NCBI GenBank assembly: GCA_030550675.1
Contig: JAUQOW010000018.1
Coordinates: 1-35,152, forward strand
Length of the DNA stretch: 35,152 nucleotides
Reading direction: 5' to 3'
Source: Chloroflexota bacterium
GTDB lineage: Bacteria > Chloroflexota > Chloroflexia > Chloroflexales > Roseiflexaceae
Below, one piece after another: positions 7,699 through 12,545 of this stretch. The number at the start of each line of letters is the position of its first letter. Position 1 is the stretch's first letter. The position numbers and the translations under genes are program-made. The notes below the pieces were generated by a model. It saw only the letters and a list, made by a program, of their open reading frames with translations. It made no database searches and was not told the origin of the DNA.

Positions 7699-8469
7699 AT
7701 GGGATCGGTCATCGCACTGGCAATGCAGAAGGGCGGGGTCGGCAAAACGACTACTGCGCTCAGTCTTGGCGCGGCGCTCGCGGCGCGCGGGCGGCGTGTG
7801 CTGTTGATCGACATCGATCCGCAGGCGAATCTGACCCAGGGACTCGGCATTGACCCATCACAACTGGAGTACAGCGTCTACGAGGTGCTGCTCAACCCGG
7901 AGCGTGGTAGCGCGTTTGCGACAATCACCACCAGCGATGGCGTCGATCTGATCCCCTCATCGCTGCTGCTGGCGGGTGCGGAACTTGAACTGGCCGGGCG
8001 CGTCGGGCGCGAGTTGCTGCTGCGCAAGGCGTTGCGCACCGCGCGCGAAACCTACGACTATATCCTGATCGATCCGCCGCCGTCGCTCGGATTGTTCTCG
8101 CTCAATGCGCTCGCTGCTGCGCAGTGGGTGCTTGTGCCGCTGCAACTGCACGCCTATGCGCTCAAAGCCATGCCGCAACTGGAGCAGACCATCGACCTGG
8201 TGCGCGAGATCAACCCGGAACTCGCCATCGGCGGCGTGCTCTGCACCCTCGCTGACCGCCGCACAAATCTGAGCCACGAGATTGAACGACAGGTGCGCGA
8301 ACGCTATGGTTCACTCGTGTTTCAAACCGTCATTCCGATGAATGTCAAGCTTGCCGAGGCGCCCAACGCCGGCATGCCGATCCATCGCTATGCGCCCGGA
8401 AGCGTCGGTGCGCAGGCGTACAGTGCGCTGGCTGACGAACTTGAACTGCGATTGACCCATACGAGGTGA
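7699..8469 (+). CDS. Orphan ParA-family ATPase
   Basis: 256 residues of the ParA/Soj class of DNA-gradient partition ATPases. The deviant Walker A QKGGVGKTTT (10-19) has the signature Lys11 and the phosphate-binding Lys16. Walker A' is IDIDPQANLTQGLG and Walker B ILIDPPPSLG. It is about chromosomal ParA length and lacks the extra N-terminal HTH of plasmid P1-type ParA. No parB is next to it; the following gene overlaps and is a hydrolase. Orphan ParAs often position cargo (carboxysomes, chemoreceptors, storage granules) through a partner with a short basic N-terminal peptide. The hydrolase carries two such peptides (see its entry). If this is instead the main chromosomal ParA, parB must lie elsewhere. 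Family certain, cargo unknown. Confidence 0.9.
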   Translation: MGSVIALAMQKGGVGKTTTALSLGAALAARGRRVLLIDIDPQANLTQGLGIDPSQLEYSVYEVLLNPERGSAFATITTSDGVDLIPSSLLLAGAELELAGRVGRELLLRKALRTARETYDYILIDPPPSLGLFSLNALAAAQWVLVPLQLHAYALKAMPQLEQTIDLVREINPELAIGGVLCTLADRRTNLSHEIERQVRERYGSLVFQTVIPMNVKLAEAPNAGMPIHRYAPGSVGAQAYSALADELELRLTHTR

Positions 8470-8471
8470 AG

Positions 8472-9551
8472 ATGAGCGCTGAACCTCCCTCGGACAACCC
8501 GACTCCTATTCGACGGGGCAAAGGGTTGCGCCTGTCGGTCACATCGTCCGACGCCGATATTCCTGCCGCTGAGTCCGGCGACGAAACGCTGCGTCGCGGA
8601 CAAGGGCTTCGTCTGTCCGTCCACGACCCGACGGCAGCCTCATCGCCGTCAACCCTCTTGCGTGAACTGATCGGCGCCCCGCAGGTCATCGAACTATCGC
8701 ACGGTCCGCTGGCATATCGCGCCGCCGGGCATGGTCCGCCGCTCATCCTGCTCCACGGTTGGGCGGCTTCGTCGCGCTACTGGCTCATCACGCTGGCGGA
8801 CCTGTCCGCCGATTTTCGCGTGTATGCGCTCGATCTGCCGGGATTTGGCGACTCCCCGGCGCTGCCTGAGCCGGGGACGGTCGCCCGGCAGGCGCAGGCT
8901 GTCCTTGAGTTTGCCGATGCGCTTGGTCTGACAACCTTCGACATCAATGGTCATTCATATGGCGCAGCGGTGGCTGTGACGCTGGCAGCCAGCCAGCCGC
9001 AGCGAGTGCGACGCCTGGTGATGACGTCGCTGGGCGCGATTGGCAGCGAGATTGAGCGCCTGATCTTTGCGCTTGCGCGCGCGCCGCTCGACCTGACGCT
9101 GCGCATCGGGTATCCCTGGCTCAACCTGATCGCGCCGTGGGTCGAGCTGTGGCGACCGTTCGCCACGGCGCTGTTGTGCGTTCCGCCGCTGCCGCAACTG
9201 CTGGCGGCGCGCTTTATCGAGAACGGGCTGCGCGAGAAGTGGATGCTCCAGGAAGGGATCGTCGATCTGACGAAGATGGACCTGCGGGCGCACCTCATGG
9301 CAGTTGTAAGCGTCGGCGACCCGCAGGTGTTCGACGCTATGTGCAACGCCCCGCAGCCAACGCTGCTGATCGGCGGCGCTGGAGACCAGATTATGCCGCC
9401 GGAGTCGCTGCACGCAGCGGCTGCGGTGCTGCGCCGTCCGCGCCTGGCGCTGATCGAACAGTGCGGTCACATCCCGATGATTGAACAGCCGGATGCGTAC
9501 CACGCCGCGTTGCGGTCGTTCCTGCTCGATGGAGCGTCCGAACCGTTGTAA
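8472..9551 (+). CDS. Alpha/beta hydrolase with duplicated basic N-terminal peptide
   Basis: 359 residues. The catalytic domain (about 70-355) is a standard alpha/beta hydrolase: oxyanion loop HGWAAS (95-100), nucleophile elbow GHSYG with Ser162, Asp305 in GGAGDQIMP and His333 in CGHIPMIEQP. The 65-residue N-terminal tail is unusual. It is polar and disordered-looking and holds RRGKGLRLSV (14-23) and RRGQGLRLSV (41-50). Start chosen at the ATG with GAGG (8463-8466) five bases upstream; a GTG at 8466 overlaps that site. The ribosome site lies in the end of parA, so the genes are co-transcribed and coupled. The tail could be a ParA-binding peptide, making this enzyme, or a body it binds, the cargo. 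Substrate (ester, lipid or polyester) is not predictable. Confidence 0.88.
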   Translation: MSAEPPSDNPTPIRRGKGLRLSVTSSDADIPAAESGDETLRRGQGLRLSVHDPTAASSPSTLLRELIGAPQVIELSHGPLAYRAAGHGPPLILLHGWAASSRYWLITLADLSADFRVYALDLPGFGDSPALPEPGTVARQAQAVLEFADALGLTTFDINGHSYGAAVAVTLAASQPQRVRRLVMTSLGAIGSEIERLIFALARAPLDLTLRIGYPWLNLIAPWVELWRPFATALLCVPPLPQLLAARFIENGLREKWMLQEGIVDLTKMDLRAHLMAVVSVGDPQVFDAMCNAPQPTLLIGGAGDQIMPPESLHAAAAVLRRPRLALIEQCGHIPMIEQPDAYHAALRSFLLDGASEPL

Positions 9552-9562
9552 TCCAATAATGC

Positions 9563-9613
9563 AATAAAACTGCGGAGAGACGTTGCAATGCAATGTCTCT
9601 CCGCAGTTTTATT
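9563..9613. terminator. Bidirectional terminator, 19-bp perfect stem
   Basis: AATAAAACTGCGGAGAGAC (9563-9581) and its exact inverse complement (9595-9613) flank a 13-base loop. The stem ends in A4 on one side and T4 on the other, so it works in both directions for the convergent hydrolase and cytochrome genes. It runs into the cytochrome stop codon. Confidence 0.88.
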
Positions 9614-10032: not shown

Positions 10033-12219
10033 TTACTGCACCCGCGCCTGCCGTCGCAACGCGATCAGGCTCAGGGCGACTGCGCCAACGCCAGCCCACC
10101 CCCACGCAGCGGAGTGTTTGCCGCGTCGCGCGGCGCGCACCCCCTTCGCCATCTCCGGGATCGACTTCAGCCGCTCCTTCGCCTCGGCTTTGCGCCGTGC
10201 GAACAGTTCGGGATCGGCGCGCAATTCCTCCGCCAGTTTGCGTTTGTGCATGATCTGTTCTTCAGTGATGTACTCCTCAAAGGAGCGCAGCGGCGCAAGC
10301 CGATACCCGTGTTTGCGGAAGAGGCGGTAGATCTCCTTGACCCGCTCAGGCGAAATGTTGCGCCCCAGCGTGTAATCCTCGAAGCGCCCTTCCATTGCCA
10401 GCAGCGACGTTTCCGCCAGACAGGCGTAGACCGTCTTTGGCGGCAAGCCAATGTCGTACCCGATCTCGACATCGCCGGGGATGATCACCTCGCCGCTCTC
10501 GATCACCAGAATATCGGGGCGGAGCGCCGCTTCCGCCGGGTTGATGTCCGGCGGGCGCGCCACGTCGCAGATGATCGCGCCCGGCTTGCACTCGGTCACG
10601 TCCAGCACCCGCTGACCAAAGGCGGAGGTGGCGGTGATGATCAGGTCGCACTCGCCCGCCAGACTGTTGGCGTGGGTCGAGATGACGACGCGCGCACCCG
10701 GCGTTTCGCGCTCGATCAGGCGCTTCAGATCGATCAACTTCTCCGGTTCAATTGAGACCAGCACGACGTCCTTCGTGGCTTGCGCCGCCAGCCGCGCACA
10801 GGCGGAGCCGATTGAACCGGTCGCGCCGATGACCATAATTCTACCACGGCTCAGGTCGTGATACCCCATCATGCGCGCTGCAATCTTGGCAGTCTCCAGA
10901 GTTGCGGCGACGGTCAGGCTGTTGCCGCTGGTGATAGCGATGTCGGCTTCGTTAGCGACGGTGATGCCTGCATCGCCGACGACGCTGGTGAAGGCGCCAA
11001 GCCCCATGATGCGCGCGCCGAGCCGCTCGGCGAGGTGCGCCGCCTGATTGAGCAGATTGTAGGTGAAGCGCGGGCTGTGCTTCATCATCTGGCGCGGCGT
11101 TGCGCCCAGCGAGATCAGATAGCCCTCGATGCGCTGCCCCGTCGTCGGCGAACGCCCGCCGGTGATCTTGCCGACGTAGATCGGCGGCACGTAAGCGGCA
11201 GCGGCTTCAACGATCGTATCGGGAATGTAGCGCGTCCAGTAAAACGGCGGGTAATCGTGAATGAATTTGACGCTCAGCGGGTGAATCACAAACGCGAACT
11301 TGTTAATGCCAACCGCTTCCGGCTGTAACGTCACAACTGCTGGCGCCCAGTCCAGGTCCGCCAGCAGGTCGAGGTAGGTGTCCTCGGTCAGCGGCGTCTG
11401 CGGATCGGGGCGCAGCGCCGCCAGCAGCGCCTCGATGGTTGCCGCAGAGTGACGCGCAATCTCGCCCTTGCCGCTGAGGGACGGCATCAGCGTAATCAAC
11501 GTTTCGACGCCGCGCTCGCGCAGATCGGCGATGTCTTCATCCGTGGCCGCTTCGACGATGACCATCTTCCGATCCAGGCGTTCCGGCGCGAAGCGACGGA
11601 TGGCGGCGATATTCCCCGCCAGAATGTCTGCCCAGACGAAGCTGCCCTGATGGTGCGGCGCGCCAGTGATGCCAGCGATGGTCTCAAATGAGGCTTCCCT
11701 GAGCGCTTCGAGCGTCGGCGCCGCCGCCTGATCAAGGGTTTGCGCGCTCCCGACGCCTGGCGCGTCGGGGAGACCGAAGAAGATCTGCGGGTCGGCGAAG
11801 CGCAGCGCCGGAGTCCGGCGCGCCAGCGCCTGCGCCAGCCCTTCGTGATTGACGCCAGGAACGAACAGCACGCGCTTCTGGTTGAAGATCAGCGGATGGG
11901 CGCGTTCGGCAAGAATGACGCCCCAGCGTTCAAGTTCGGGACGCACGCCGCTGCCGTCGACAACCGGCGTCGCTCGCGCCGCAGCGGGCAGATCAGCGCC
12001 AATGGCGTGCTGGACCTGCGCATTGCCCAGGCGTAGCACGGCAGGCATGCCTTCCAGTCCAATCGCGTCAACTGCGCCGTCATGCTCGGCGATGAGAGCG
12101 CGAGCGCGCGCAATGTCGCCGCCGCAGCCAATGCGGCGCACCTCGACTTCCTGGTTCAAAAAGGTGACTGGCGAGACCATGTCGCCTTCGCCAAGGTGAA
12201 TGATAAGGACTCGCTTCAT
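10033..12219 (-). CDS. Acyl-ACP-reductase-like (AAR-like) dehydrogenase with large N-terminal extension
   Basis: 728 residues. Residues about 305-645 follow the cyanobacterial long-chain acyl-ACP reductase (AAR) pattern. There is [17 protein letters not shown], then a nucleotide-binding loop [17 protein letters not shown] (464-480), and [15 protein letters not shown] with Cys600. Next come YTLGRN and [14 protein letters not shown], which match the FACFAES...WGRN...KHGF stretch of AAR around its catalytic Cys. AARs reduce fatty acyl-ACP/CoA to aldehyde with NADPH. The N-terminal 300 residues look like a separate alpha/beta domain that I do not recognise. A Lys/Glu-rich helix (650-700) and a C-terminal membrane anchor (about 704-722) follow. 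Start chosen at ATG 12219 behind AGGAGG; the frame is open to 12501 through a repeat. It is followed by the cytochrome c gene. A quinate/shikimate-dehydrogenase-like activity is the alternative. Confidence 0.75.
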
Positions 12220-12277
12220 AGATTTCCGCCTCCTCGCAGCGCCGCGACCGGCGGCGCCTACGAACGCACTTATTGTC

Positions 12278-12286
12278 AGGGTAGCA
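12278..12286 (-). promoter_or_regulatory. Possible extended -10 for the AAR-like gene
   Basis: On the minus strand TGC-TACCCT lies about 59 bases ahead of the start codon. It resembles the other TGC-TA promoters here, but its last bases are poor. Confidence 0.3.
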
Positions 12287-12339
12287 CGGCGGCGCATCCC
12301 GGCGCGGAAACAAATGGCGACGCCGGGTTTACAACCTGC

Positions 12340-12400
12340 TACTTTTTGATGAGAGATGAGCGGCAAGGGGCAAGAGGCGCAAGGGGCAGGGGCGTCGCTT
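12340..12400. repeat. Purine-rich short-period repeat
   Basis: GATGAGAGATGAGCGGCAAG and GGGGCAAGAGGCGCAAGGGG form degenerate short-period DNA. The gene-free stretch 12220-12600 holds this, the possible AAR promoter and the dispersed repeat at 12436-12545; otherwise I see nothing in it. Confidence 0.5.
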
Positions 12401-12435
12401 TTCCTCGTCCTCCAGGCTCTCTTAGGACGATCCAC

Positions 12436-12545
12436 GAGATGTTGGACAATCTTGTGATTAGCGCTGGCTTCGACAGGCTCAGCCAGCGCCAACCGATCCA
12501 CAAGTGCAAGCGTGATTGTGCGGGTTTAGTTGATCTTCCCATCAG
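12436..12545 (+). repeat. Dispersed hairpin-bearing repeat, copy 1
   Basis: The centre is a perfect 9-bp hairpin, GCGCTGGCT (12461-12469) and AGCCAGCGC (12481-12489), with loop TCGACAGGCTC. Flanks match the inverted copy at 25300-25412: TTGGACAATCT to the left, then AACCG..., GTGCA.GC, GGTTTA and TTGATCT to the right. The core TTCGACAGGCTCAG is a known REP-like motif of many bacteria. Confidence 0.75.

Follow-up and report, generated by a model that had tools for sequence, protein, structure and literature searches.

The window, the whole 35,152-nucleotide stretch of DNA analysed here, is contig C389 in a 5.06-Mb genome that is Roseiflexus-like. On its forward strand a gene for a Walker-type ATPase of the ParA type is directly followed by a gene encoding an alpha/beta-hydrolase fold. 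The features of the locus are:

7699..8469, + strand: parA, Walker-type ATPase (AAA_31), 256 aa; Pfam PF13614, E 1.2e-53
8466..9551, + strand: alpha/beta-hydrolase partner gene with putative N-terminal tandem ParA-docking peptides; Pfam PF00561, E 6.1e-28
8511..8540, + strand: putative docking peptide copy 1, RRGKGLRLSV, residues 14-23 (ATG form); invariant or near-invariant in alignment A1
8592..8621, + strand: putative docking peptide copy 2, RRGQGLRLSV, residues 41-50 (ATG form); R42, G45 and L48 invariant in A1
8955..8957, + strand: codon of the nucleophile Ser162 (GHSYG), intact in the window copy, Ala or Gly in 12/26 relatives
9384..9386, + strand: catalytic-acid position Asp305, invariant in A1
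9468..9470, + strand: catalytic-base position His333, invariant in A1
9563..9613, no strand assigned: 25-bp near-perfect inverted repeat from a repeat search, between the hydrolase gene and a convergent cytochrome c gene

The partner gene can start at GTG 8466, which yields 361 aa and a 4 nt overlap with parA, or at ATG 8472, which yields 359 aa and leaves a 2-nt gap; both forms end at 9551. We prefer the ATG since the GAGGTGA just 5′ of it resembles a ribosome-binding site and the relatives align to the same Met. The translational overlap given in the preliminary description would thus hold only for the GTG form, but parA and the hydrolase gene are tightly coupled under either start codon. 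In the majority of Chloroflexaceae the ATG of the partner gene lies inside the 3′ end of parA. The inverted repeat at 9563-9613, not flagged by a simple terminator scan of the window, is a probable two-way terminator that closes the parA-hydrolase unit. A large ORF at 10033-12501 on the minus strand has a weak Pfam match to a shikimate-dehydrogenase-like domain at its C-terminus and is otherwise for the most part without a family.

A duplicated peptide at the N-terminus of the hydrolase

Between the two peptide copies there are six synonymous codon differences at the DNA level (seven nucleotides) and a single non-synonymous one, K/Q; this recount agrees with the earlier one. Among seven close relatives pN/pS is 0.059 for the motif, compared to 0.371 for its linker and 0.193 for the folded domain. 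By this measure constraint on the motif far exceeds that on the linker, in keeping with the selection on the peptide that had been proposed. Overlapping-frame constraint cannot account for either copy since both lie downstream of the parA stop, which also rules out an overlap artefact as the origin of the motif.

The AlphaFold model gives pLDDT values under 50 for residues 1-62, compatible with disorder, and the motif-bearing segment is probably disordered. Of the “disordered tail” described initially the disorder can be kept, but the segment is N-terminal. ParA partners have their docking peptide at this end, and the correction accordingly strengthens the idea of a ParA partner; such partners generally dock via charged, disordered N-termini (PMC10241942). 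The core of the peptide, G-[KQR]-G-L, aligns with the ParB box, although the motif departs from the textbook form of that box by an Arg at its first hydrophobic position and, in copy 2, a Gln at the charged position.

A degenerate DNA pattern comprising all codings of the core peptide was run on the host genome and on 82 genomes of the order. It matched the 5.06-Mb host genome three times, twice in this hydrolase and once within a 45-codon non-coding frame. Matches in G034 and G035 fall in repetitive frames, and five fetched off-locus matches lie in short non-coding frames beside longer ones, so that the matches opened speak against the motif being a common peptide. Among the inspected matches in the 82 genomes there was no coding occurrence away from the locus, and thus no sign of the peptide in many proteins unlinked to ParA.

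The ParA lineage and the partners of its relatives

The deviant Walker A motif with the signature lysine (K11, K16), the Walker B motif and the catalytic Asp (D40) are kept in all hydrolase-linked ParAs that cover the site. The position of K217, equivalent to R238 of Myxococcus xanthus ParA in nonspecific DNA binding, is basic in all 27 hydrolase-linked proteins (23 Lys, 4 Arg). In M. xanthus ParA a pocket for the ParB peptide at the dimer interface and an arginine site have been measured, and ParA binding requires two juxtaposed N-terminal peptides (PMC12462528). Y61, E62, L96, E97, L130, G131, L135 and I171 of the window ParA are the pocket and arginine-site equivalents; relative to the M. 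xanthus pocket (Y81, E82, V116, E117, L150, G151, L155, L192) they are conserved or conservatively changed. The equivalent of M. xanthus D110 is Leu in the window ParA and six others.

In the ParA tree the 27 hydrolase-linked proteins form a single clade (98/94), including the leaf L024, which reads “other” in the tree and is counted within the clade because its partner is a hydrolase. The clade is nested with ParAs that have RHH or DUF3102 partners (92/94) and is separate from chromosomal ParA-ParB, a system that is also present in the host genome (G000:C359). The informative relatives came from viral contigs, while annotated plasmids and phages contained no match of at least 60% identity to the window ParA. 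The tree supports the assignment of this ParA to a partition-type lineage of Chloroflexota genomes and viral contigs; with such relatives and an identifiable partner gene, “orphan”, as it had been called, no longer seems the right word.

We searched 158 genomes of the class for ParA and read the next gene for every member of the close group. The 27 ParA-hydrolase pairs all belong to Chloroflexales, to the two families holding Roseiflexus and Chloroflexus. Each pair retains the motif, two canonical copies being found in 25 of them and a shortened second copy in L015 and L016. No motif-bearing hydrolase was found without its ParA. In a hydrolase profile search N-terminally complete, high-scoring matches occurred solely at the pair loci; other strong matches begin past the motif region or are without the motif, which is absent from the ParA-less paralogues examined. 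Matches spanning the motif region in a scan of genome contigs with this profile were all from Chloroflexota, except for short or weak ones. The free, ParA-less paralogues (L111-L114 and others) have Trp-Pro-rich cap repeats, e.g. LWQPWLTAWQPWINVWQPW, that could be a contact site for a membrane or lipid surface.

In their own tree the linked hydrolase domains likewise group as a single clade (99/93). Since the ParA and hydrolase trees each give one origin, independent capture by the two families is ruled out. Both flanks of the locus in putative C. aggregans have a match in putative C. aurantiacus and two relatives, while the parA-hydrolase stretch has none there, which indicates that the two genes were gained or lost together.

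Close relatives of the ParA are followed by short RHH-like proteins with the peptide IRRGRGVRLST or IRRGQGIRLST. On an 81.6-kb viral contig (L254), where the ParA is 68% identical, the partner peptide reads EIRRGRGVRLSTEG; this next gene encodes a short protein starting with MPSKKDLDALLNAPAPLPEIRRGRGVRLSTEG and with a probable ribbon-helix-helix at its C-terminal end. The partner peptides of L034 and L032 are PIRRGQGIRLST and VIRRGQGVRLST, those of L050 and L055 VRGKGYQLST (EIVRGKGYQLST) and VQGQPYRLST (QVVQGQPYRLST). DUF3102-like partners have a degenerate form, IQKGAPFQVST (PIQKGAPFQVST), and the motif is weak in some of them and in L033 of the RHH-like group. The RHH-like proteins match Pfam below threshold (E 2.7e-4 and 0.0015) and known structures weakly (E 3 at best), with the RHH proteins CdbA, SvtR, Arc and CopG recurring among the latter; that the short partners are ribbon-helix-helix proteins is probable and moderately supported. 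At L032 and L034, both of the RHH type, parA is preceded by iteron arrays like those of a partition centromere. No enriched 8-mer was detected upstream of parA in 25 of the 26 hydrolase loci tested. At the exception (L027:2329-2495), a contig end of a Chloroflexus genome, a minisatellite with a period of about 30 or 90 forms a local tandem repeat upstream of parA, which is probably unrelated to a centromere since it is absent in the siblings.

The partners of the wider group show further variation. Some DUF3102-like partners (L048, L049, L036) also have two peptide copies, e.g. PLQKGAPYTVSS and TLQRGAPFTIST, so duplication may recur across the ParA lineage rather than being specific to the hydrolase. 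A fourth partner type (L058, L063, L065, L066, L067, L068) has an ERGL-TF-EVG core, no Pfam match in the one member tested, and an N-terminal box nearer to that of ParB (RRGRGLDGM, IQRGQGLDGL). The linker of the RHH-like partner at L032:2255-2677 (+ strand) consists of near-identical heptapeptide repeats (AETQDRT), possibly a spacer of variable length.

The same peptide on unrelated partners, together with the nested position of the ParA clade, makes it very probable that it is the element by which partners dock to ParA in a partition system of mobile elements, moved once onto the hydrolase fold. The role of a ParA-partner element initially proposed for it is well supported by these comparisons, and by its absence in the ParA-less paralogues examined. 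The peptide is also rich in Arg and Gly, and such peptides often bind RNA or DNA; it could accordingly bind nucleic acid or another protein, with ParA as an accidental neighbour. Strict co-occurrence in 27/27 pairs, the joint absence in putative C. aurantiacus and the occurrence on partners of sister ParAs make such a coincidence highly improbable.

The hydrolase fold and its nucleophile

Only alpha/beta-hydrolase families of Pfam match the partner protein, and its AlphaFold model shows the usual alpha/beta-hydrolase fold, with a hydrophobic cap that is long. Among the PDB matches to the model with Z 26-30 are esterases and a PHB depolymerase, none of which is singled out. The closest enzyme-family matches fall far under their cut-offs; intracellular scl-PHA depolymerase (NF050089) scores 89.5 bits and does not reach its curated cut-off of 300.

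The Ser162, Asp305, His333 triad is intact in the window protein and in the other Roseiflexus copies. The alignment shows Ala or Gly instead of the nucleophile Ser in 12 of the 26 copies, on several branches, while the Asp and His never change; Ser is kept in the window copy and 13 other linked copies, L024 and G001 among them. Compared with this Ser, the putative docking peptides are thus the more conserved feature. Since the motif persists where Ser is lost, catalysis would not be the conserved function, and the repeated loss of Ser with retention of the other two triad residues and of the peptides makes it more likely that the domain binds a ligand or surface than that it acts in general ester hydrolysis. 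The hydrolase fold is probably a cargo-binding adaptor and not a positioned esterase. This adaptor or ligand-binding role would apply in general, and activity is possible in Roseiflexus.

An esterase or lipase positioned by ParA had been one of the original proposals. In that case a serine hydrolase would be kept on the nucleoid or moved to its substrate, with catalysis as the point of the system. The complete triad of the Roseiflexus copies and the esterases and PHB depolymerase among the closest folds would fit such an enzyme. It is hard to reconcile, however, with peptides that outlast the nucleophile in nearly half of the relatives and with enzyme-family scores so far under their cut-offs, and we consider an active esterase unlikely to be the cargo.

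Another possibility is that nothing is moved: ParA could use ATP to switch the hydrolase, or the hydrolase could regulate ParA by activating its ATPase. Apparently just two genes are needed, no conserved third neighbour gene having been noticed, and tight gene coupling fits a complex. But this ParA has retained every hallmark of partition along with the basic residue for DNA binding, and it is related to partition-type systems, so that we find a purely regulatory pair quite improbable.

A candidate positioning module and its cargo

We favour, as the probable explanation of the sequence data, a two-gene ParA positioning module with an exchanged partner. The ancestral partners would have been of the DNA-binding type (RHH-like or DUF3102-like) with a short N-terminal peptide of the core [RK]-G-x-[GP]-hydrophobic-x-[LV]-S-T. 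This peptide would have joined an alpha/beta-hydrolase domain once, near the base of Roseiflexaceae and Chloroflexaceae, and would then have been duplicated; the simplest history is a single transfer of the peptide onto the hydrolase followed by largely vertical descent with losses. In the proposed mechanism ATP-bound ParA dimers coat the nucleoid, presumably with no sequence preference. The two peptides of one partner chain may fill both symmetric pockets of one ParA dimer, in place of a pair of ParB N-termini, and induce ATP hydrolysis and release, while the hydrolase-fold domain would couple the ParA cycle to the cargo. The tandem repeat would supply the two juxtaposed peptides that M. xanthus ParA needs.

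The ParA appears to be a member of the positioning-ATPase family, and the pair resembles a ParA positioning system in several ways. With Type Ib plasmid partition (ParF-ParG, delta-omega) it shares the ParA family, a partner gene directly downstream and a flexible N-terminal partner segment with a short ParA-directed peptide, and the partners of its sister ParAs are probably RHH proteins bearing the peptide seen here. It differs in that the partner has an alpha/beta-hydrolase fold instead of a DNA-binding RHH and in that the hydrolase loci are generally without centromere-like iterons upstream. A partner that does not bind DNA and missing centromere-like repeats argue that the pair is not a DNA partition system. 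Like chromosomal ParABS it has conserved residues in the ParA pocket for the ParB peptide, and the G-[RKQ]-G-L core is common to the ParB N-terminal box and the hydrolase peptide, but there is no ParB fold in the partner. McdA-McdB carboxysome positioning likewise combines a ParA-type ATPase with a non-DNA-binding partner that has a charged N-terminal segment; here the partner fold is unrelated, and the invariant C-terminal tryptophan that McdB carries according to a published account (PMC11321042) is absent from the C-termini in alignment A1. PhaM, PhaF and PhaH, which connect PHB granules to the nucleoid, would be a possible analogue if the cargo were a PHA granule, but they contact DNA themselves and are not homologous to ParA (PMC13052382).

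A ParA-positioning mechanism would not position a lone soluble protein, and the swapped partner suggests a new cargo that is not DNA. The storage body of the initial proposal is a guess open to testing, and PHA granules in particular are a hypothesis only: an ATP-driven ParA system from a phage or plasmid would space a hydrophobic storage body along the nucleoid of filamentous phototrophs, with the hydrolase or pseudo-hydrolase and its tandem ParA-activating peptide as the adaptor, a scenario that we regard as doubtful. Cells of Chloroflexales are densely packed with granules of PHA, polyphosphate and other kinds (PMC7332563), and a 2025 review considers the need for energy expenditure in PHB granule positioning still open (PMC13052382). 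PhaC has a match in 26 of the 27 pair-bearing genomes and also in 21 pair-less ones, a distribution confounded by shared ancestry; co-occurrence of PhaC and the pair (Fisher p 1.8e-7 in the order, 0.027 in Chloroflexaceae) is uncorrected for ancestry and hence only a hint. Wax-ester synthase could be ruled out as a cargo marker, PF03007 not being found in pair-bearing Chloroflexus species.

The cargoes of ParA/MinD ATPases include plasmids, chromosomes, carboxysomes and chemotaxis arrays, among others, and to our knowledge their acquisition of a new cargo is rarely visible in sequence. Here the step would be laid out, from sister ParAs with DNA-binding-type partners to a peptide duplicated on a metabolic-enzyme fold that later lost its catalytic serine several times. 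A search covering part of the literature found no paper describing a ParA-hydrolase pair, and as far as we know the cell biology of Chloroflexales has been little studied. If the proposed module is real, it would define a portable ParA-docking tag and a way to provide both juxtaposed peptides on a single chain, and there would be an undiscovered positioned body in Chloroflexales.
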